DNA of 49,824 nucleotides from Balneolaceae bacterium (lineage in GTDB: Bacteria > Bacteroidota > Rhodothermia > Balneolales > Balneolaceae). The notes beneath the pieces were generated by a model that did not search any database, was not told where the DNA came from, and saw only the letters and a list, made by a program, of their open reading frames with translations. The translations under genes were made by a program, and so were the position numbers. Location: the NCBI GenBank assembly GCA_007693395.1, contig REDS01000094.1, forward strand, positions 1-49,824, in the 5' to 3' direction. Of this stretch, positions 6,330 to 45,867 are shown one piece after another; positions within the stretch are counted from its first letter, which is position 1; each line of letters opens with the position of its first letter.

Positions 6330-6402
6330 ATGTGGCCAAAGTAACATTAAAATGTTATAGAATACCATCCAAACTCTGTATACTTTCGTAGTAGGTAAAG
6401 AT

Positions 6403-6443
6403 TGCCAAAAATGAAAGAGAAGCAGTTTTTTTAATTTTTGGCA
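6403..6443. repeat. Inverted repeat downstream of uvrC
   Basis: A perfect 10-base inverted repeat, TGCCAAAAAT (6403-6412) and ATTTTTGGCA (6434-6443), encloses a 21-base loop containing TTTTTTT. It lies in the 216-base gap between uvrC and the ECF sigma gene. It could be an inefficient uvrC terminator or a dyad for a regulator of the sigma operon. The loop is long and no U-run follows the 3' arm, so a standard terminator is unlikely. Confidence 0.4.
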
Positions 6444-6545
6444 TACAATGTGCAATAACTTATCAAAGCGCTTTTATTGCTCGAATGTTAAGGCGTAAGA
6501 AACTGTTTTGATAAATAACAGGGCTTATTTATAATTACCGAAATC

Positions 6546-7181
6546 ATGCGACTTACTAAATCAGACCACATACCGAAAAACTACACCCGAATGCAAGATA
6601 AAGAGTTGGTACATCTCTTCAGAAAAGAGGATGATCAGCTTGCATTTCATGAGTTAATGAACCGGCATCAGGCTAAAGTGTACTCATACATCTTTAGCAT
6701 GATTCAGAACCGTGAAATTGCTAACGATATCTTCCAGGAGACGTTCACGAAGGTGATCACCAAGATGGATGATACGTACAACGAGCAGGGTAAATGGATT
6801 GCCTGGGTGATGCGTATTGCACATAATGCAACAATCGATCATATCAGAAAACAAAAACGATTTGTGGACGTTACAGGCTCGTATGATGAAGAATCGAAAA
6901 CTGATTTTTACGACAGATTACCCGACGATGATGCCATCGGCCAGCAGGAAAAGCTCGAGCTGGATGAGTCTACATCAAGTCTGTTGAAGCATATTTCGAA
7001 TCTGCCGGAGGAGCAGCGAACAGTGGTTATGTTGCGGCACTATTATGAAATGCCTTTTAAGGAAATAGCTGATTTAACAGGTGTTTCCATAAATACTGCT
7101 TTAGGAAGAATGAGATATGCTTTGATAAATCTTCGTAAAATGTTCGATGAGGAACATGAGAAGGAATCAAAGAATTTATGA
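6546..7181 (+). CDS. ECF-type RNA polymerase sigma factor
   Basis: A 211-residue sigma-70 family protein of the extracytoplasmic-function type, redirecting RNA polymerase to a dedicated regulon. The sigma-2 domain spans about residues 25-100 (AFHELMNRHQAKVYSYIF, DIFQETFTKVI, WIAWVMRIAHNATIDHIRKQ). An acidic linker follows, then sigma-4 at about 145-200 (LPEEQRTVVMLRHYYEMPF, EIADLTGVSINTALGRMRYA). An ATG at 6591 (MQDKELV) is a plausible alternative start. It overlaps the next gene by 4 bases (ATGA), the usual arrangement for a sigma/anti-sigma pair; the operon is probably autoregulated. Confidence 0.93.
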   Translation: MRLTKSDHIPKNYTRMQDKELVHLFRKEDDQLAFHELMNRHQAKVYSYIFSMIQNREIANDIFQETFTKVITKMDDTYNEQGKWIAWVMRIAHNATIDHIRKQKRFVDVTGSYDEESKTDFYDRLPDDDAIGQQEKLELDESTSSLLKHISNLPEEQRTVVMLRHYYEMPFKEIADLTGVSINTALGRMRYALINLRKMFDEEHEKESKNL

Positions 7182-35090: not shown

Positions 35091-36104
35091 ATGGATTTAA
35101 ATAAAAAATCAATACTTATAACCGGTGGTACCGGTTCTTTTGGCAAAGCATTTGTAAAACGGGTTTTAAGCGAATGGCCAAATATAGAAAGGTTAGTCAT
35201 CTATTCACGGGATGAACAGAAACAGTTTGAAATGGCACAAGAGTACCCACATAAAGATTACCCGATGATTCGGTTCTTTATTGGTGATGTGCGGGATTAC
35301 AGCAGGCTGAAGAGGGCGCTCAACGGTATTGATTATGTGATTCATGCTGCAGCTATGAAACATGTACACATCGCCGAATATAATCCTGATGAATGTGTGA
35401 AAACGAACATTGGTGGAGCAGAAAACCTTGTAAAAGCGTGTTTATCAAATGGAGTTAAAAAAGTCGTCGCGCTATCTACAGATAAAGCAGCTGCACCTGT
35501 CAATTTATATGGAGCTACCAAACTGGTGTCCGACAAGCTCTTTATTGCGGCAAACAATATTCGGGGATGGAATCCCATCACATTTTCTGTAGTGAGATAT
35601 GGAAATGTTATGGGGTCAAATGGGTCGGTAATACCCTTCTTTATGAAAAAAAGGGATGAGGGTGTTCTGCCTATTACTAATACAAGCATGACCCGTTTTT
35701 CCATAACCCTTGCAGATGGAGTAAATATGGTACTGCATGCTCTTGAACATGCCTGGGGCGGTGAATTATTTGTTCCGAAAATCCCATCATACCGAATTAC
35801 TGACGTAGCTGAAGCAATTGGACCAAACTGCAAACATGAAGTGATAGGCATGAGGCCCGGAGAAAAAATCCATGAAGAGATGATTACCACCTCAGACTCC
35901 TTTTATACTTACGATCTTGGGAAATATTTCGTGATTTTACCATCAAGCCACAATTGGAAGCTTGAAGAGTTTTCAGAGCATTTCAATGCCAGAAAAGTTC
36001 CGCTCGGTTTCAGGTATAATTCGGGGGATAATGATGAATGGCTATCCGTTGAGCAGATTCGTGATTTGATAAAAACACATCTATACCCCGATTTTAGCAC
36101 ATAA
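35091..36104 (+). CDS. pseB: UDP-N-acetylglucosamine 4,6-dehydratase (inverting), PseB
   Basis: PseB removes water from UDP-GlcNAc and inverts C5, giving UDP-2-acetamido-2,6-dideoxy-beta-L-arabino-hexos-4-ulose, the first step to pseudaminic acid. The 337-residue protein has the NAD(P) loop ITGGTGSFGKAFVKRVL (12-18), the PseB-type AAMKHVHIAEYNPDECVKTN and STDKAAAPVNLYGATK with Y140 and K144, and the C-terminal VPKIPSYRITDVAEAIGPNC. It has no N-terminal membrane domain, so it is not a WbpM-type enzyme. It starts 36 bases after the ABC gene; a weak hairpin lies in that gap. Confidence 0.95.
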   Translation: MDLNKKSILITGGTGSFGKAFVKRVLSEWPNIERLVIYSRDEQKQFEMAQEYPHKDYPMIRFFIGDVRDYSRLKRALNGIDYVIHAAAMKHVHIAEYNPDECVKTNIGGAENLVKACLSNGVKKVVALSTDKAAAPVNLYGATKLVSDKLFIAANNIRGWNPITFSVVRYGNVMGSNGSVIPFFMKKRDEGVLPITNTSMTRFSITLADGVNMVLHALEHAWGGELFVPKIPSYRITDVAEAIGPNCKHEVIGMRPGEKIHEEMITTSDSFYTYDLGKYFVILPSSHNWKLEEFSEHFNARKVPLGFRYNSGDNDEWLSVEQIRDLIKTHLYPDFST

Positions 36105-36129: not shown

Positions 36130-37350
36130 ATGCAGGAACACAAATCTCCAATTCCATACGGAAGGCAGCAAATTACAGACGAGGATATTAATGAAGTTAT
36201 CCGCGTACTAAAGACTGATTATTTAACTCAAGGCCCAGAGATTGAAGCCTTTGAGCAAGCTTTTGCTGCTTATGTAGGCAGTAAATTTGCTGTAGCAGTC
36301 TCGAATGGTACGGCTGCCCTGCATTTATGTGCACTTGCGCTCGAGGTTAAAGAAGGTTCAAAAGTTATTACCACGCCCCTTACTTTTGCAGCTTCCGGAA
36401 ATTGTATTCTATACTGTGGCGGTGAAGTTGTTTTTGCAGATATTGATCCCGAAACGTGGCTTATCGATATCGAACATGTAAAAGAGTTACTTCATGCTAC
36501 TCCAGAAGGAACATACCAGGGTATTATTCCTGTTGATTTTACAGGTCGTCCGGTAAATCTTGAAGCATTCAGAAAACTTGCAGATGAACACGGCCTTTGG
36601 ATTATTGAAGATGCATGCCATGCACCCGGAGGCTGGTTTCTAAATAGTGAGGAAAAACGGTCGCACTGTGGCAGCGGAAAATATGCCGACCTTGCCATCT
36701 TTTCGTTTCATCCGGTTAAGCACATTGCCGCAGGCGAAGGAGGCATGATTACCACAGATAATCCGGAACTCTACAAAAAATTACTGTCATTACGTACACA
36801 CGGTATTATTAAAGATGATGATCGTTATCTGAACTCTCCAAATATTGCTGATGGCAGATTTACTCAGGATAAGGATGTTATACAAAAATTTTATCCCGGT
36901 TGGTATATGGAAATGCAAGATCTTGGATACAACTACAGGCTAACCGATTTCCAGGCTGCACTCGGGCGCAGCCAACTCTTACGAGCTGATGAAGGTTTAA
37001 ATCGGCGTAAAGAAATTGCAAAACGATATGATGAAGCTTTCAAAGATGAACACTGGTTAATCAGGCAGGCGGGTTTTATAGATGGCCATGCATATCATCT
37101 CTATGTTGTTGAAGTTGAAGATCGTAAAGAGCTATATGATTACCTTCGATTGAATAAGATTTTTGCACAGATTCATTACATACCACTTCATCTGATGCCC
37201 TACTACAGAAACCTCGGCTGGAAACCGGGCGATCTCCCAAATGTAGAAAAATACTATAGTTCTTGTATCAGTTTGCCTCTGTATCCTTCGCTAAGTGATG
37301 AACAGCAGTTGTTTGTGATTGAAACCATTCGCTCTTTTTATGACAAATGA
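36130..37350 (+). CDS. pseC: UDP-4-amino-4,6-dideoxy-N-acetyl-beta-L-altrosamine transaminase PseC
   Basis: A PLP aminotransferase that adds an amino group at C4 of the PseB product, producing UDP-4-amino-4,6-dideoxy-L-AltNAc. The 406-residue fold-type I protein has the sugar-aminotransferase start IPYGRQQITDEDINEVIRVL. The phosphate-binding AVSNGTAALHLCALAL and LWIIEDACHAPGG follow, and the PLP lysine is K197 in FSFHPVKHIAAGEGGMITT, the exact PseC-type context. The last 11 bases overlap the aldo/keto reductase gene. The product would normally be acetylated by PseH, which is absent here. Confidence 0.95.
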   Translation: MQEHKSPIPYGRQQITDEDINEVIRVLKTDYLTQGPEIEAFEQAFAAYVGSKFAVAVSNGTAALHLCALALEVKEGSKVITTPLTFAASGNCILYCGGEVVFADIDPETWLIDIEHVKELLHATPEGTYQGIIPVDFTGRPVNLEAFRKLADEHGLWIIEDACHAPGGWFLNSEEKRSHCGSGKYADLAIFSFHPVKHIAAGEGGMITTDNPELYKKLLSLRTHGIIKDDDRYLNSPNIADGRFTQDKDVIQKFYPGWYMEMQDLGYNYRLTDFQAALGRSQLLRADEGLNRRKEIAKRYDEAFKDEHWLIRQAGFIDGHAYHLYVVEVEDRKELYDYLRLNKIFAQIHYIPLHLMPYYRNLGWKPGDLPNVEKYYSSCISLPLYPSLSDEQQLFVIETIRSFYDK

Positions 37351-38182
37351 TCTTCTTCAAAAGATTGGAATCGGTACTGTACAATTTGGAACAGACTATG
37401 GTATTTCAAATACATATGGCCAGACACCATCAGGAGAGGTTGTAAAGATTTTACACTTTTGCAGGCAGTATGGTGTTACGCTATTAGATACTGCACCGGC
37501 CTATGGAGATGCTGAAAAAGTAATTGGGGCCAATGATTTAACGGGTTTCAGGGTTGTATCAAAGTTTATGCCTCCACGTTATTTATCAATAGAAGATCAG
37601 CTCAAAAAGAGCCTTACAAATTTAAACCATGATAGCCTTTATGGTTACCTTGCTCACCGCCCTGAAGATCTGTTGATCAACCCCGTTCAGTGGAACATTC
37701 TGCAACAGTTAAAAGATTTGGGGTCCATCAAAAAGGTAGGTTTTTCATTGAATAAACCGGCTGAACTTCATGCACTCATTGAAGAGAACATGATACCTGA
37801 TCTTGTACAAGTGCCGTTCAATTATTTTGATAAGCGGTTTGAAAACGACTTTAAAATACTGAAACGGTACAACTGCGAAATCCATGCCAGATCTGTATTT
37901 CTTCAAGGTCTGTTTTTTAAAAAATCTGAGGAATTATCACTATTTTTTGATCAGGTTAAACCTGTAATCCAAAGTCTTCAAAGGGATTTCAGCAACCTTG
38001 CACAATCACTACTTATGCATGTTTTAAAACATCCAATGATTGACAGAGTGATTATAGGTGTGAATAATAGCGCGCAATTTCTCAATAACCTTAATGGTAT
38101 CGGAACTGCTGAGGAACTTCCGACAACTCATTTAGAAATTCCTGAAGAAATCTTAATGCCATCAAACTGGCCTGCAAAATGA
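37340..38182 (+). CDS. Aldo/keto reductase of the NulO cluster
   Basis: A 280-residue aldo/keto reductase from the ATG at 37340, overlapping pseC by 11 bases. It starts KIGIGTVQFGTDYGISN and has the catalytic DTAPAYGDAEKVIG region with Asp and Tyr. The lysine lies in VVSKF, and the phosphate-binding segment is near LKHPMIDRVIIGVNN. AKRs of this kind recur in nonulosonic-acid loci, but their substrate is not established. It may reduce a keto-sugar intermediate or modify a side chain. The downstream SDR overlaps by 4 bases. Confidence 0.8.
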   Translation: MTNDLLQKIGIGTVQFGTDYGISNTYGQTPSGEVVKILHFCRQYGVTLLDTAPAYGDAEKVIGANDLTGFRVVSKFMPPRYLSIEDQLKKSLTNLNHDSLYGYLAHRPEDLLINPVQWNILQQLKDLGSIKKVGFSLNKPAELHALIEENMIPDLVQVPFNYFDKRFENDFKILKRYNCEIHARSVFLQGLFFKKSEELSLFFDQVKPVIQSLQRDFSNLAQSLLMHVLKHPMIDRVIIGVNNSAQFLNNLNGIGTAEELPTTHLEIPEEILMPSNWPAK

Positions 38183-39022: not shown

Positions 39023-40786
39023 ATGTATAATATTATTGAAATTGCCAATACACACGGCGGTGATAATGATTATCTAAACGATCTGATTGATCAATTTGCC
39101 GAGTACAAAAACAATTTTGGCATCAAATTTCAACCAAGTAAGCCGGATCGTATCGCACTTGAGAGTTACGAGTTTTTTGAGGTTTACAAAGAGTTCTTTT
39201 TTGATAATGACGAATGGAAAGGTTTCATCACCAAAGCCGGTAAAACCAAAGATGTATGGCTGGATCTATTCGATACCTACAGTGTGGAGATATTCCGGGA
39301 AAATAATGATACAGTACGAGGCATAAAACTGCAGGCATCAGTTCTAAATAACCTTGAAGTTGTTGATGCATTGAAGAAACTTGGCCTGAATGGCAAAGAT
39401 CTCATTATCAATATTTCAGGGTTCAGCATTAACCAGATAGAAGATTTTGTACGTGATTTTGAGAACCAGCTGAATCCACGAGAACTTCTGCTTGAGATCG
39501 GGTTTCAATCTTACCCAACACAGCTGGTAGATTCCGGTTATTCCAAAATCAAAACCATAAAAGAACACTTTTCCAATCGAATTGTTTTTGCTGATCATAT
39601 TGATGCTAATGATCCAATGGCGATCTATTTCCCGTCAATGGCTTTACTGCAGGGAGTGGATGCGATTGAGAAGCATGTTCGCTTACCGAGAGAAACAAAA
39701 TACGATCATTTCTCAAGCCTGAACCCGAAACAATACGCTATATTTATTAAGATTCAGAAGGCTTGCTCTGAGCTTGGTTCACAACCGTTTATTAATCAAA
39801 AAGAGACTGAATATCTCATAAACAGTTTGATGAAGCCTGTTGCTGGCGAAAATATACAACAAGGCTCACTGCTAAATCCAAAGAAAAATCTTCTATTCAG
39901 AAGATCTGGTAAAGATGGCCTTGATCTATATCAGATTAAAGAGAAATTGAAATATCGAAGTATTGTATCGAGAGAGGTGAATAAACACCAAACGTTTACC
40001 GACCATGACTTTAAAACAGCGCATGTAGCTGCAATTGTGGCTTGCAGGCTTAAATCAACACGGCTTAAAAGTAAGGCGCTCAGTAGAATAGGTGATTTAA
40101 GCTCCATTGAGTACTGCCTTAGAAACTGTTTGCGTTTTCCCGGTGTGCAAACAACGGTACTTGCCACCAGTAACCTAAGCAGTGATGAACCACTTAAAGA
40201 TTATACATACAGCCCTGAAATCCATTTTTTCACGGGCGATCCGGATGACGTGATCAATCGGTATTTAGGAGTAATCAATCAGCTTAAAATAGACGTCTTT
40301 ATACGTGTTACAGGTGATAATCCATTTGTAGATCCCGAAATCTGTGAGATTTTGTTGGAGAAACACTTTGTATCAGGTGCCGACTACACAACTGCAAGAC
40401 AAACAGCTGTTGGAGCAAACTTGGAAGTTATTACATCGGCTGCACTCAAGAGAGTGGCAGAGTATTTTCCCGCTGCCAATTACTCTGAATATATGAGTAA
40501 GTATTTCACCAATAATCCCGGGCACTTCAACATAAACATTGTGGACCTGCCTGAAGAGTATATTCGTGATTATCGCCTTACACTGGATTATGAGGAAGAT
40601 TTGCAGTTATATAATGAAATTGATGCACGATTATCAGCTGAAAATCCTGATTTTGGAATTAAAGATGTGTTTAACCTTTTAGATTCAACAAACTTAGCTG
40701 ACATTAATTCGCATATCAGTCAAAAATACGAAACTGATCAGCAGCTTATAAACACCCTCAACCAACACACAACAATTAAGAGTTGA
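39023..40786 (+). CDS. Fusion: divergent NeuB/SpsE-type synthase domain plus SpsF cytidylyltransferase
   Basis: A 588-residue protein from the ATG at 39023. Residues 1 to about 265 are a divergent NeuB-family barrel. E6 (IEIANTHGGDND), K35 (GIKFQPSK), K102 (GIKLQAS), SYP at 163-165, D191-H192 and the E216-K217-H218 motif (DAIEKHVRLPRETKYDHF) match the landmark residues of sialic-acid-type synthases. A short SAF-like start (YRSIVSREVNKHQTFTDHDF) is cut off and runs straight into an SpsF/PseF-type CMP-sugar cytidylyltransferase (about 333-575: VAAIVACRLKSTRLKSKAL, FFTGDPDDVINRYLGV, IRVTGDNPFVDPEI). The cytidylyltransferase would activate the finished NulO. An ATG at 38939 would overlap the SDR. 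Genes with spsE, spsF and spsG order exist elsewhere as separate genes. Confidence 0.82.
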   Translation: MYNIIEIANTHGGDNDYLNDLIDQFAEYKNNFGIKFQPSKPDRIALESYEFFEVYKEFFFDNDEWKGFITKAGKTKDVWLDLFDTYSVEIFRENNDTVRGIKLQASVLNNLEVVDALKKLGLNGKDLIINISGFSINQIEDFVRDFENQLNPRELLLEIGFQSYPTQLVDSGYSKIKTIKEHFSNRIVFADHIDANDPMAIYFPSMALLQGVDAIEKHVRLPRETKYDHFSSLNPKQYAIFIKIQKACSELGSQPFINQKETEYLINSLMKPVAGENIQQGSLLNPKKNLLFRRSGKDGLDLYQIKEKLKYRSIVSREVNKHQTFTDHDFKTAHVAAIVACRLKSTRLKSKALSRIGDLSSIEYCLRNCLRFPGVQTTVLATSNLSSDEPLKDYTYSPEIHFFTGDPDDVINRYLGVINQLKIDVFIRVTGDNPFVDPEICEILLEKHFVSGADYTTARQTAVGANLEVITSAALKRVAEYFPAANYSEYMSKYFTNNPGHFNINIVDLPEEYIRDYRLTLDYEEDLQLYNEIDARLSAENPDFGIKDVFNLLDSTNLADINSHISQKYETDQQLINTLNQHTTIKS

Positions 40787-41766
40787 GCTCTCAATCTACA
40801 ATCAAGAGGCAGTTACTCATCAGGGCTGATGGAGATCAGCAAACCGGTTTAGGCCATCTCTACAGATGTATCTCTCTGGCTTATATGCTTCAGGATGATT
40901 TCGTAATTACATTTATGATGAAATATTGCCCTGAGAATATTCTAAAAGAGATCACAGCAGATGGATTCAATGCCCGTATGATAACTGTTGATGACGATTT
41001 CTATTCGTATTTGACATCCGAATCTGTTGTAGTTCTTGATGGGTATAAATTTGGGTTACTCCATCAGCAAGAAATTGCCATGCGGAAAGTGGCCGGAATT
41101 GTGTGTATTGACGATATGTACGATCGTAAATTTGCATGCGATCTCATCATAAATCATGCCCCCGGGGTTAAGCAGGGGTACTACAATGCAGACTTAACTA
41201 CAAAATTTGCACTCGGTCCCGATTACGCTTTATTGCGCCCGCTGTTTTTAGAAGCAGCATCAAAAAAAGAGAGTCAAACAAAATCTAAAGAACTGTTTAT
41301 CTGTTTTGGAGGGTCAGACCCCAGAGACAAAACATCTCTTGCTGTAGAAACCGCACTAACTGCAACGGAGTTTCAGAGAATTAATGTGGTAGCTGGAGCA
41401 GCTTATCCGTATTTTGACAAGCTGAAAAATAGATTCAGTAGTAGTGATCGAGTTGTTCTGTATCAGTCTCTTAATCAGAATAACATGTTAAGACTTATGG
41501 AAGAATCGTCTGTGGCGATTGTGCCTTCAAGCGGAATTTTGTTTGAGGTTCTTGCAGCAGGATGTAAAGCTATTTCCGGTGTGTATGTTGATAATCAAAA
41601 AAAGGTATATGCAGGATTTAAAGAGCTGAATGCGATTGTTGAGGCAGGGGATTTTAGCCGCTCAGATATGGAACGTGCGTTATTGGAGTCAGAGGGGTTT
41701 ACTCCCCCAAATATTATTGATGGAAATAGTGCCGAACGAATAAGAAACTTATTTAAACAGATTTAA
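40783..41766 (+). CDS. pseG: UDP-sugar hydrolase PseG
   Basis: A 327-residue GT-B-like hydrolase that removes UDP from UDP-2,4-diamino-trideoxy-L-altrose, freeing the sugar for PseI. The start RQLLIRADGDQQTGLGHLYR and the later VCIDDMYDRKFACDLIINH with FICFGGSDPRDKTSLAVET fit PseG/SpsG. The second-domain VAIVPSSGILFEVLAAGC is present. The start is a TTG at 40783 overlapping the previous stop (TTGA); no ATG precedes the glycine-rich motif. It lies next to the synthase-cytidylyltransferase fusion, the usual spsE-spsF-spsG order. Confidence 0.93.
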   Translation: MSSQSTIKRQLLIRADGDQQTGLGHLYRCISLAYMLQDDFVITFMMKYCPENILKEITADGFNARMITVDDDFYSYLTSESVVVLDGYKFGLLHQQEIAMRKVAGIVCIDDMYDRKFACDLIINHAPGVKQGYYNADLTTKFALGPDYALLRPLFLEAASKKESQTKSKELFICFGGSDPRDKTSLAVETALTATEFQRINVVAGAAYPYFDKLKNRFSSSDRVVLYQSLNQNNMLRLMEESSVAIVPSSGILFEVLAAGCKAISGVYVDNQKKVYAGFKELNAIVEAGDFSRSDMERALLESEGFTPPNIIDGNSAERIRNLFKQI

Positions 41767-41781: not shown

Positions 41782-43467
41782 ATGACCATTTTAGGAATTG
41801 CGAACGATGAAACAGCAAGTGCCTGCATTATAAAAAACGGCAAACTGATTGCCGCTGCAAGCGAAGAGAGGTTTACAAGGGTTAAGATGGATAATTCCTG
41901 GCCAAAGCAATCTATTGATTACTGCCTGCAGGTTGCAGATTGCGCCCTTCACGAGCTTGATGCCATTACGTATGGCTGGAGTGCAGGCTTTGATGCTGAA
42001 AAACATCTGCTTGAGTATTTTGACCGTATTGTTTACGAAGCTCAAACCAATCCGGGCGGACTGCCAATTTTTCGTGAGCGTATAGAGACAGAAATGAAGC
42101 AGGATCGTAAAAAAAGAGATGAATTTTGGGCTTTCGTAGATGAACACAATCTCCGTGATAAAGCGTTTTCTTACGATCATCATGATGCGCATGCTTTTTC
42201 AGCCTATGCTTGTTCCCCTTTCGAGAATGCACTTGTAGTAACGTGCGATGGGCGCGGCGATTTTATGTCGTTTTCAGTGGCTTCGTTTTCTCCAACTGAA
42301 AATGAATTTCACTACAGAGGAAGCAGTTCAGACAGCCTCGGATTCTTCTATGGCAGAATTACAGGCCTACTGGGTTATCGTCCGCACCGGCATGAGGGTA
42401 AAGTTACAGGGTTGGCCGCACATGGTGATCCCCAAAAATTACTCCCCCAAATGCGTGAGATGATCTACGTAAAAGAGGGAAAAGTGTATGGAAAATCAGG
42501 TGACCTTTTCAGGCCGTTTTATACCAATTATTCTGAACCGCTCAAAAAATTGATTGCTGAAAATTCGCGGGAAGATGTAGCTGCTGCCGCACAGGTTCAC
42601 CTTGAAGAATCTATTACTGAGTTGGTACAGTACTATGTAAACCAAACGGGCGCTGAATATGTGTGTATGGCAGGTGGTGTGTTTGCAAATGTACGTGTAA
42701 ACCAATGCATCCTTGAAATTCCGGGTGTAAAAAATGTATTTATTCAGCCACAAATGGGAGATGGTGGCCTGAGTATTGGTGCTGCTGCCAATTATCTCTT
42801 CGATAATGGATTACATAAAGTAGAATTGACCGATGTATATCTTGGCCCGGATTATTCTGATGAGGAGATTGAAGCTGAGTTGGGTAAAACATCAGGAATC
42901 TCATATCAGTGTGCTGAGGATGCTACCCAACACGCTATCGATGCTATCAACAATAATGAAGTAATCGGCTGGTATAACGGACGAATGGAATTTGGTCCGC
43001 GTGCACTGTGTAACCGCAGTATAATCTATCACTGCAAGGATACGTCAGTGAACGACTGGCTGAACGAGCGAATGGACAGAACGGAATTTATGCCGTTTGC
43101 CCCCGTTACGCTCGAAGAACTTGCACCGCAATGTTATTTAGGCTGGGAAAAAGATCATATAGCAAGCCGCTATATGACAATTACCTACAACTGTACCAAG
43201 TTAATGGCAGAAAACTGTCCTGCAACAGTGCATATTGATAATACGGCTCGGCCTCAAATTGTTAATGAAGAGAGCAATCCAAAAATGTACCGATTGCTCA
43301 AAGAGTATTATCGGCAAACCGAAGGGCTTTCATTGATTAATACCTCTTTTAACCGGCACGAAGAACCCATTGTTAACCGCCCACAAGAAGCTATTGATGC
43401 TCTTAAAACCGGAATGATTGATCTGCTGGTGATAGGAAACTATGTGGCAAAGAAAGCTGAAGCATAA
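41782..43467 (+). CDS. Carbamoyltransferase (NodU/CmcH/TobZ family)
   Basis: A 561-residue carbamoyltransferase that makes carbamoyl-AMP from carbamoyl phosphate and ATP and passes the carbamoyl group to a sugar hydroxyl. The Kae1-like N-terminal domain has MTILGIANDETASACIIKNG, metal-binding H134, D135 and H137 in YDHHDAHAFSAY, and TCDGRGDFMS. HEGKVTGLAAHGDP, CMAGGVFANVRVNQ and IQPQMGDGGLSIGAAA follow. The C-terminal YrdC-like domain has GRMEFGPRALCNRSIIYHC. It is downstream of pseG by 15 bases and abuts the formyltransferase-like gene. The acceptor is probably the NulO or a neighbouring sugar (inferred). Confidence 0.92.
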   Translation: MTILGIANDETASACIIKNGKLIAAASEERFTRVKMDNSWPKQSIDYCLQVADCALHELDAITYGWSAGFDAEKHLLEYFDRIVYEAQTNPGGLPIFRERIETEMKQDRKKRDEFWAFVDEHNLRDKAFSYDHHDAHAFSAYACSPFENALVVTCDGRGDFMSFSVASFSPTENEFHYRGSSSDSLGFFYGRITGLLGYRPHRHEGKVTGLAAHGDPQKLLPQMREMIYVKEGKVYGKSGDLFRPFYTNYSEPLKKLIAENSREDVAAAAQVHLEESITELVQYYVNQTGAEYVCMAGGVFANVRVNQCILEIPGVKNVFIQPQMGDGGLSIGAAANYLFDNGLHKVELTDVYLGPDYSDEEIEAELGKTSGISYQCAEDATQHAIDAINNNEVIGWYNGRMEFGPRALCNRSIIYHCKDTSVNDWLNERMDRTEFMPFAPVTLEELAPQCYLGWEKDHIASRYMTITYNCTKLMAENCPATVHIDNTARPQIVNEESNPKMYRLLKEYYRQTEGLSLINTSFNRHEEPIVNRPQEAIDALKTGMIDLLVIGNYVAKKAEA

Positions 43468-44105
43468 TGACCATTTATGCAGGAAACTATATAGAGGTTT
43501 TAAAAACGTTTCATGAAACGTTAGGAGTGAATATTGCGATATCTGAAAAGCGAAATGTTGATTCAGTAATAGTTGAATACTGTTCGTCAAATAAAATTAC
43601 GTTGTTCCTGGCAGAAAACTCTGCTCACCTGGATGAGTATCTTGATAGCCTTCCGGAAAATATTAAACTATGCCTTGTTGCCAGCTTTGGCCTGTTGTTG
43701 AAAAACAGGTTTATAGAGAAAACTGAATGGACGGTTAATATTCATCCGGGTGATCTGAAAACCTGCCGCGGGAGGCATCCTCTTCCGTTTGCAATCGTTA
43801 AGGGATTACCCATGATGACTCTCACTGCTCATCTCATTGAAGATGAAAAAATTGATAATGGCCCGGTTTTGGCTGAGTTTTCTATACCTATTGATTATAC
43901 AAAATCGTACTCGAGTAATGATCTCATGTTAAGATCAAATCTCCCTTTTATTACAAATTTGATTTTATCACAGGTAAAAGAAAAAGGTGAATTACACACT
44001 GCTGTGATAGATTTAAAAAATGCTCCGTATAACAAGCGGCTTGATGCGGACACTCTGAACGAAGTAATGAATTCCAAAAACCTATTGAAATACTGTTATT
44101 TATGA
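43467..44105 (+). CDS. Formyltransferase-like protein, candidate sugar N-formyltransferase
   Basis: A 212-residue protein with the formyltransferase catalytic Asn-His-Asp triad: N91 and H93 in WTVNIHPGDLKTCRGRHPL, and D130 in EDEKIDNGPVLAEFS. The family uses N10-formyltetrahydrofolate. It lacks the long C-terminal domain of methionyl-tRNA formyltransferase, so it is more likely a sugar N-formyltransferase (as for viosamine-type amino sugars). In this operon there is no PseH, and the PseC product carries a free 4-amino group. The neat prediction is 4-N-formylation, giving a 7-N-formyl pseudaminic acid. It overlaps the flanking genes by 1 and 4 bases. Confidence 0.78.
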   Translation: MTIYAGNYIEVLKTFHETLGVNIAISEKRNVDSVIVEYCSSNKITLFLAENSAHLDEYLDSLPENIKLCLVASFGLLLKNRFIEKTEWTVNIHPGDLKTCRGRHPLPFAIVKGLPMMTLTAHLIEDEKIDNGPVLAEFSIPIDYTKSYSSNDLMLRSNLPFITNLILSQVKEKGELHTAVIDLKNAPYNKRLDADTLNEVMNSKNLLKYCYL

Positions 44106-44818
44106 TTGTTGTAAGTCAGCCAAGATATTTGCCTGCGCTAACATACTTACAAAGGCTCCATTTTGCCGATACGTTTGTAATACTTGATAACGTACAAAGG
44201 CAAAAGCGCGGGTTTGAAAACAGGAATCGCGTTCTGGTTGACGGTAAAACAAGATGGCTTACGATTCCATCATCCTCATCATCCCGGGCACTCATTAGAA
44301 ATACCACGATTGATGGTATCGATTGGATTACAGAGCATAAAGAAAAGCTTGCACAGTATTACGCAAGCGCCCCGTTTTTTAAAGAAGAGTATATCGAGGC
44401 GTACTATAAAGATTTAAACGAAAAGATCGTAGAGACTAACTATGACTTTTCTGCATCGATGATTCATCTCATAAATAATATCTGCTCGCTATTTGGTTTT
44501 TCGCCGAGAATAATTTGTGCAACAGATCTTGATAGTAATGAGGTGGAGGCTGGCCATGGGCCGGATAAAATAGCTGAAATAGCAAAAGCATTGAAGGCAA
44601 AAATTTATGTATCCGGGTTGAATGGCAGGGAGTATGGAATAAAAGACTCCTTTGCAAAGAGCAATATTGAGGTTAAATTTCATGAAGATCAACCTGCCAT
44701 GTATACTCAGGGAGATCATGAATTTATACCGCACCTGGCTTTTTTCGACTCCCTGTTTTACGCCGGGATGGAAGAAACCATTAAACAGGTTAAAAAAGAA
44801 CCTACCTTACTAAACTGA
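44102..44818 (+). CDS. WbqC-family protein
   Basis: A 238-residue protein of the WbqC family, found in surface-polysaccharide loci. The family start IVVSQPRYLPALTYLQRLHF is followed by FVILDNVQRQKRGFENRNRV and TRWLTIP. No signal peptide or membrane helix is present. No catalytic activity is established for the family that I can state. Its position between the formyltransferase-like gene and pseI, with 4-base and 1-base overlaps, suggests a role in the same modified NulO or its transfer. Confidence 0.88.
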   Translation: MIVVSQPRYLPALTYLQRLHFADTFVILDNVQRQKRGFENRNRVLVDGKTRWLTIPSSSSSRALIRNTTIDGIDWITEHKEKLAQYYASAPFFKEEYIEAYYKDLNEKIVETNYDFSASMIHLINNICSLFGFSPRIICATDLDSNEVEAGHGPDKIAEIAKALKAKIYVSGLNGREYGIKDSFAKSNIEVKFHEDQPAMYTQGDHEFIPHLAFFDSLFYAGMEETIKQVKKEPTLLN

Positions 44819-45867
44819 TGATGAAAATTGGAAACAGACAGATAGGCGATAACCAGCCCTGTTTTATTATTGCTGAACTCTCTGCAAACCATCTGCATAA
44901 CTTTGATATTGCAATTAAAACACTGGAAGCGGCCGCTGCTGCAGGAGTTGATGCATTTAAGATTCAGACTCTTACTGCAGACACAATGACCATAAATTGT
45001 GATAATGAATACTTTACCATAAATAAAGGTACACTATGGGATGGCAGAACATTGTATGATCTCTATTCAGAAACCCCTCTGCCTTATGAATGGCATCAGC
45101 CCATTATTGATAAGTGTCATGAACTTGGCTTAATTTGGTTCTCAACACCGTACGATAAAACCGCCACGGATTTTCTGGAAACATTAGACCCGCCGGCATA
45201 CAAAATCGCTTCCTTTGAAATTACTGACATACCACTTATTGAGTATGTGGCATCAAAAGGTAAACCTGTAATAATGTCAACCGGCATAGCAACGAAAGAA
45301 GAGATTGAAAATGCCATTGTTGCCTGCAGGAAAAGTGGAAATCATCAGATTGCGTTACTTAAGTGTACATCAGCGTACCCTGCTCCCTATGAAGAGATTA
45401 ATCTTCGGATGATCGAAGAGTATAAACGTGAATATAGGGTAATCAGTGGGCTTTCTGATCATACATTAGGCACAGAAGTGCCGGTAGCATCGGTTGCCCT
45501 GGGTGCAAGCATCATCGAAAAACATATGATTCTGGACCGCAACCTTGGCGGGCCTGATGCAGCGTTTTCTTTAGAACCTGAAGAGTTTAAAACACTTGTA
45601 AATCAGGTTAGAAATGTTGAAAAAGCAATCGGTACTGTAACTTATGAATTAAGCGAAAAAGTTAAAGCGAACAGGATGTTTGCAAGATCTCTTTTTGTAG
45701 TGAAAGACATCAAAAAAGGGGAGCCATTTACAGAAGAATCGGTACGTTCTATAAGGCCTGGAGACGGGCTTGCCCCTAAATTTTATCATGCCGTTCTTGG
45801 AAAACATGCCGCAGCTGATATAAATAGGGGTACACCGTTAAATGAAAATCATATTGAGGATTTTTGA
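44818..45867 (+). CDS. pseI: Pseudaminic acid synthase PseI
   Basis: A NeuB-family synthase that condenses the PseG sugar product with phosphoenolpyruvate to form pseudaminic acid. The 349-residue protein has all landmarks: FIIAELSANHLHNFD, FKIQT, the PseI-typical TLWDGRTLYDLYSETPLPYE, YKIASFEITDIPLI, SGLSDHTLG and IIEKHMILDRNLGGPDAAF. A full C-terminal SAF domain has VRSIRPGDGLAPKFYHAVLG. ATGs at 44818 and 44821 are both possible. Unlike the fusion gene at 39023, its SAF domain is intact, so this is most likely the working Pse synthase. Confidence 0.96.
   Translation: MMKIGNRQIGDNQPCFIIAELSANHLHNFDIAIKTLEAAAAAGVDAFKIQTLTADTMTINCDNEYFTINKGTLWDGRTLYDLYSETPLPYEWHQPIIDKCHELGLIWFSTPYDKTATDFLETLDPPAYKIASFEITDIPLIEYVASKGKPVIMSTGIATKEEIENAIVACRKSGNHQIALLKCTSAYPAPYEEINLRMIEEYKREYRVISGLSDHTLGTEVPVASVALGASIIEKHMILDRNLGGPDAAFSLEPEEFKTLVNQVRNVEKAIGTVTYELSEKVKANRMFARSLFVVKDIKKGEPFTEESVRSIRPGDGLAPKFYHAVLGKHAAADINRGTPLNENHIEDF

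Follow-up and report, generated by a model that had tools for sequence, protein, structure and literature searches.

A NeuB–SAF–cytidylyltransferase fusion with a probably neofunctionalised barrel in a pseudaminic acid locus of a Balneolaceae bacterium

Main Finding

One gene of a Balneolaceae bacterium (contig REDS01000094.1) encodes a NeuB-type barrel, a complete SAF (antifreeze-like) domain and an SpsF-type cytidylyltransferase (CT) in a single protein. It lies in a pseudaminic acid (Pse) locus within the window, as the whole 49,824-nucleotide stretch of DNA analysed here is called. The protein is probably a CMP-Pse synthetase joined to a neofunctionalised, NeuB-derived barrel–SAF part that would no longer perform the ordinary PEP condensation; we infer the PseF role, the loss of the PEP reaction and the ligand binding of the barrel. 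NeuB hits serve to call nonulosonic acid (NulO) synthesis and to predict the sugar of a gene cluster. If this barrel family accompanies a real synthase without condensing PEP, such hits would lead to systematic miscounting, and the true reaction of the barrel would be a missing pathway step or a missing control point.

Domain Architecture of the Fusion

The initial annotation had described one unbroken frame running from a NeuB-like barrel into a CT. This is confirmed by the frame itself, which is uninterrupted, by two Pfam domains (NeuB, PF03102, 43.1 bits against a cut-off of 22.1; CTP_transf_3, PF02348, 73.1 bits against 22.6) and by full-length collinear orthologs of 42–57% identity. An artefact of assembly or frame was also considered, and is ruled out by the many collinear full-length relatives, some of them in isolate genomes. 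The motifs expected in the barrel (E6, K35, K102, Y164-P165, D191-H192 and E216-K-H218) were all found, and its scores lie far under the NeuB equivalog cut-offs (TIGR03569, 46.7 against 399.65 bits; TIGR03586, 40.0 against 340.25 bits).

Structure prediction of the full protein, proposed at the outset, gave an AlphaFold2 model of mean pLDDT 92.8 in which an eight-stranded barrel, a SAF domain (about residues 260–333) and the cytidylyltransferase are resolved. With Foldseek the model aligns to 3g8r (337-residue chain, 350 alignment columns, target-based TM 0.83), to PseI 8h2c (TM 0.77–0.79) and to the NeuB-family structure 1xuu; PseI/NeuB chains are matched along their whole length, which places the N-terminal domain with NeuB at the level of the fold. 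The CT portion matches the cytidylyltransferase 6oew with a TM of 0.88–0.89. Searches of an open-access collection of papers turned up no account of a NeuB–SAF–CT protein. Shewanella SfmA (PMC3765264) was also looked at and dropped, being a 290-aa NeuB-domain protein with no CT fusion.

The SAF domain had been thought to be cut to about 20 residues and then replaced by the CT. That reading was wrong, because hhalign, the AlphaFold2 model and Foldseek all show a whole SAF, complete though divergent and carrying R294, with the CT coming after it. With hhalign, fusion residues 1–333 pair with PseI residues 15–349 (E = 5e-39); taken on its own, the SAF pairs over 54 columns (E = 1.9e-7). The Pfam SAF model has no match in the fusion, presumably owing to the divergence of the domain. 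NeuB enzymes form domain-swapped dimers, each SAF capping the site of the neighbouring subunit. In the meningococcal enzyme, the only direct contribution of the SAF to the active site comes from Arg314 (PMC6795526), and its equivalent, R294, is invariant across 39 alignment rows.

Table 1. Features of the fusion gene and of the surrounding Pse locus.
Feature	Position in window	Strand	Evidence
PseB dehydratase	35091..36104	+	TIGR03589, 507.7 bits vs 407.75
PseC aminotransferase	36130..37350	+	TIGR03588, 441.8 bits vs 423.5
Aldo/keto reductase (AKR), start codon uncertain	37319..38182	+	PF00248; AKR fused behind CT in Schinkia (L111)
SDR, adh_short_C2, 262 aa	38179..38967	+	Pfam; domain and length as EpaB (PMC12053666)
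NeuB2–SAF–CT fusion gene	39023..40786	+	587 aa plus stop; full-length orthologs
NeuB-type (beta/alpha)8 barrel and helices toward SAF, residues 1–267	39023..39823	+	PF03102; eight model strands; Foldseek
D81, NeuB Thr110 position	39263..39265	+	D in 38/38 distinct fusions
SAF (antifreeze-like), complete but divergent, residues 268–333	39824..40021	+	hhalign; invariant R294 = NeuB Arg314; model
SpsF-type cytidylyltransferase (CT), residues 334–587, predicted CMP-Pse synthetase	40022..40783	+	PF02348; invariant residues; 6oew match
PseG hydrolase	40783..41766	+	TIGR03590, 168.6 bits vs 153.55
Formyltransferase-like protein, possible N-acylation step	43467..44105	+	PF00551, 37.3 bits vs 26.1
PseI, canonical pseudaminic acid synthase with SAF	44818..45867	+	TIGR03586, 486.6 bits vs 340.25; catalytic residues

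The Pse Locus and the Role of the Cytidylyltransferase

The PseB, PseC, PseG and PseI proteins of the window all score above their equivalog cut-offs, which identifies a pseudaminic acid locus (Table 1). A NodU-like carbamoyltransferase and a BshB1/PIG-L-like deacetylase are also present between or behind the Pse genes, and no PseH-like acetyltransferase was noticed among the scanned window genes. The stretch 41782–44105, inside the locus, holds the carbamoyltransferase together with the formyltransferase-like gene; going by these genes, the product of the locus may be N-formylated and carbamoylated.

In the CT, the columns R342, K344, S345, R347, K351, D432, R518 and D522 are invariant. The genome has only two CTP_transf_3 genes, namely the fusion and one full-length match of 195 bits, which on its score is kdsB-like. 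Since only this kdsB-like gene is otherwise available, the fusion is likely the CMP-Pse synthetase, and from its context the CT most likely fills the PseF role of the locus. No PseF equivalog model matched the CT among NCBIfam hits with E up to 0.01.

Distribution and Genomic Company

A search for the same domain order in relatives, as suggested in the initial annotation, recovered it in the genus of the window (57% identity), in two further sampled genomes (50% and 45%) and in several other phyla, with 38 distinct full-length fusion sequences in all. The genome-contig collection yielded 36 loci with an alignment query (a single-protein query gave none), 34 of them matching along the full length; the phyla on the locus records are Bacteroidota, Balneolota, Ignavibacteriota, Bacillota, Myxococcota, Thermodesulfobacteriota and Campylobacterota. 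The fusion occurs in 5 of 301 Bacilli genomes and in 3 of 396 genomes of a phylum sample, the window's own counted. The family is rare but broad. Searches of plasmid and phage collections brought up mainly CT matches and no fusion of full length.

Nearly all of the 36 loci with flanking sequence sit among Pse genes, PseI included, and no second CT of this type was found in the stretches of those loci. Where PseI is missing from the stretch, the contig usually ends; at one such locus (L102) the same contig has a canonical synthase some 11 kb away. A canonical NeuB-family synthase is also present in 13 of the 15 fusion genomes checked, the remaining two being MAGs. The co-occurrence with PseI is not absolute because of two genomes. 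In one, from the Bacilli (G709), the fusion has no Pse genes nearby. In the other (G634) the fusion is still in the locus, a broken PseI remnant adjoins PseH (L145, about 6378–6699; G634:C17:158377–158698) and the neighbourhood of the fusion showed no PseC; this is read as a decaying locus. AKR and SDR genes accompany the fusion in only a minority of loci, so the role of the barrel does not hinge on them.

The Barrel Active Site

The barrels of the 38 distinct fusions were compared with 36 PseI proteins, the group membership of some rows being set by score thresholds; residues of the synthases are numbered after the PseI of the window, which agrees with the meningococcal enzyme at most of these positions. 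The fusions keep E6, K35, K102, H192, E216, H218 and R294, while Q37, Y164 and D228 are each found in 37 of 38. The metal histidines H215 and H236 and the catalytic lysines K53 and K129 thus have their counterparts (H192, H218, K35 and K102) in every fusion. The equivalents of K35 and K102 are PEP contacts in NeuB, and as both are kept, the barrel could still bind PEP or a different keto acid.

Six other active-site positions are changed in the fusions, mostly in a fixed manner, and the 36 PseI proteins retain theirs. T110 is replaced by D, E134 by V or I and S185 (also given as N/S184) by Q in all 38; S213 is A in 37 and T in the other; S154 is N in 34 and G in four; the S132 position is variable. 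At position 110, PseI itself has Ser in 25 of 36 sequences and Thr in nine. Several of the replaced positions presumably hold PEP in NeuB structures. Several are on the published list of active-site residues, which gives no PEP-contact assignment for them (PMC6795526). A type II divergence test, which asked whether strictly fixed differences are enriched in the active-site columns, gave a weak result (p = 0.08) and is given no weight here.

The dN/dS of the barrel is 0.02–0.09, as low as that of the CT (10 of 11 pairs; the eleventh was saturated). Purifying selection that matches that of the CT points to functional change of the barrel, not decay. The earlier suggestion that it has lost or changed its synthase activity is supported by the six replaced positions and by the canonical synthase in nearly all of the same genomes, and the remodelled barrel probably does a job so far undescribed.

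Natural Comparisons and Origin

Stand-alone NeuB2 genes beside CT genes (n = 6) share G160-F161-Q162 and, mostly, A190. One is a split copy (L107), in which the NeuB2 and CT parts lie in separate frames; the other five come from genomes in which canonical synthases are present too. The Lys129 equivalent is missing in four of the six. In trees from quick searches, the 39 fused barrels fall together with the split copy in one clade (99% SH-aLRT), and the CT domains of the fusions form another (99%), grouped with the CT genes that adjoin stand-alone NeuB2 genes (93%). The simplest history would start from adjoining NeuB2 and CT genes, pass through one old fusion and continue by horizontal spread.

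Several variants have arisen within this family. A plasmid of Priestia megaterium (L074:8992–9963) encodes a SAF–CT protein of 323 aa with no barrel, annotated as 'spore coat protein'; its SAF match is under the Pfam cut-off, and its neighbours are AKR, SDR, PseG, PseH and PseI. The CT of genome G508 has no barrel and seemingly no clear SAF either. Both are nested inside the Bacilli fusion clade, which implies at least one loss of the barrel and probably two. Schinkia azotoformans (L111:7974–10640) has instead an 888-aa NeuB2–SAF–CT–AKR protein with an SDR gene after it. In a Cyclobacteriaceae MAG, SAF and CT are separated by a stop codon; this split may be natural or an error.

Two fusions in the reverse order, CT–NeuB, were found in genomes G005 (L067:6850–8640, minus strand) and G191 (L068:7869–9614, plus strand), where each is the only NeuB. 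Both retain T110, S132, S154, S185 and S213, and in the alignment have D at E134 and S at R314; SAF is detected by Pfam in L067. The near-canonical pocket of these two proteins indicates that fusion to a CT alone need not remodel the pocket. In the sequences compared, remodelling appears to go with being the companion of another synthase. The Priestia protein without a barrel, the split copy, the AKR-extended copy and the reverse-order fusions are ready comparisons for testing the barrel.

Viral contigs of IMG/VR (L170 and L171–L190), many with PseB/PseC/PseI-like genes, encode proteins of about 655–690 aa in which a CT comes first. In L170:5989–7986, the one contig given a domain scan, it is followed by a class-III aminotransferase.

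Proposed Function and Alternatives

In the preferred reading, PseI would make pseudaminic acid and the CT of the fusion would activate it using CTP. As the barrel retains its metal-binding histidines and its residues on the sugar side, the same hexose or NulO is probably still its ligand. It would then either modify the sugar in a PEP-independent step, or hold it and hand it on. A wider version of the first option, which we put forward tentatively, is that the whole 'GFQ-YPT' NeuB2 family, stand-alone and fused, might work without PEP on the hexose or NulO of Pse/Leg-type pathways, as the enzyme of an undescribed step in NulO biosynthesis that NeuB-type annotation conceals.

A non-catalytic role, such as the channelling scaffold suggested in the initial annotation, is a rather unlikely alternative. 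Here the barrel–SAF would be a pseudo-synthase that pairs with PseI and brings the CT to it for channelling or regulation. The complete SAF with its invariant R294 would suit such a partner, as would the Priestia protein, in which the SAF was kept beside PseI though the barrel was lost. However, the barrel's sugar and metal residues hardly vary at all, a constancy beyond what a pure scaffold would need, and the G508 CT seems to do without a clear SAF.

That the barrel is a true synthase, condensing PEP with a different sugar to give a second NulO, is improbable. The PF03102 fold, the metal histidines, both lysines and the Arg314 equivalent are all retained, and the reverse-order proteins are near-canonical synthase–CT fusions. 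Against this stand the six replaced positions, T110 to D included, the canonical synthase that is nearly always present, the scores far under both NeuB equivalog cut-offs and the stand-alone relatives, most of which lack even Lys129. A different NulO, as first suggested, is less likely, since there are changes at positions where PEP is expected to be held. A relic barrel, which an old fusion would have left to decay while the CT alone matters, can be dismissed almost entirely: Priestia and G508 manage without the barrel, but its dN/dS is like that of the CT and its residues are invariant across phyla.

Comparison with Known Systems

In Acinetobacter prophages, EpaA (CT–AKR) and EpaB (an SDR) convert Pse to 8-epi-Pse (PMC12053666). 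The window has a CT, an AKR and a 262-aa adh_short_C2 SDR in a Pse setting, a likeness in gene content and domains. The Schinkia protein, like EpaA, has its AKR joined on after the CT, and with the SDR that follows it resembles an EpaA/EpaB pair to which a NeuB part has been added. EpaA itself lacks a NeuB domain, and the AKR of the window is a separate gene. By analogy, an 8-epimerised product of the window locus would be a reasonable guess. Searches of phage and viral collections brought up no clear EpaB, and the SDRs found there had no clear EpaA partner.

The reverse-order fusions bring the same two enzyme families into one protein. They differ from the window fusion in their opposite order, in a separate CT clade, in keeping most residues of the PEP pocket and in being the sole NeuB, and are judged to be an independent fusion.

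With PseI, NeuB and SpsE (TIGR03586, TIGR03569, PF03102; 8h2c, 1xuu, 3g8r) the fusion has in common the full-length barrel and SAF, the metal histidines, both lysines and the Arg314 equivalent. Unlike them, it carries a CT, has six active-site positions replaced, scores far under the equivalog cut-offs and occurs alongside a canonical PseI, not in its place. With the SpsF-type CMP-NulO synthetases (PF02348; 6oew) it shares a whole CT, including the invariant nucleotide-binding and RLT-D motifs, and this CT is the only candidate for the activation step; it differs from those enzymes in its NeuB-derived extension of 333 residues.
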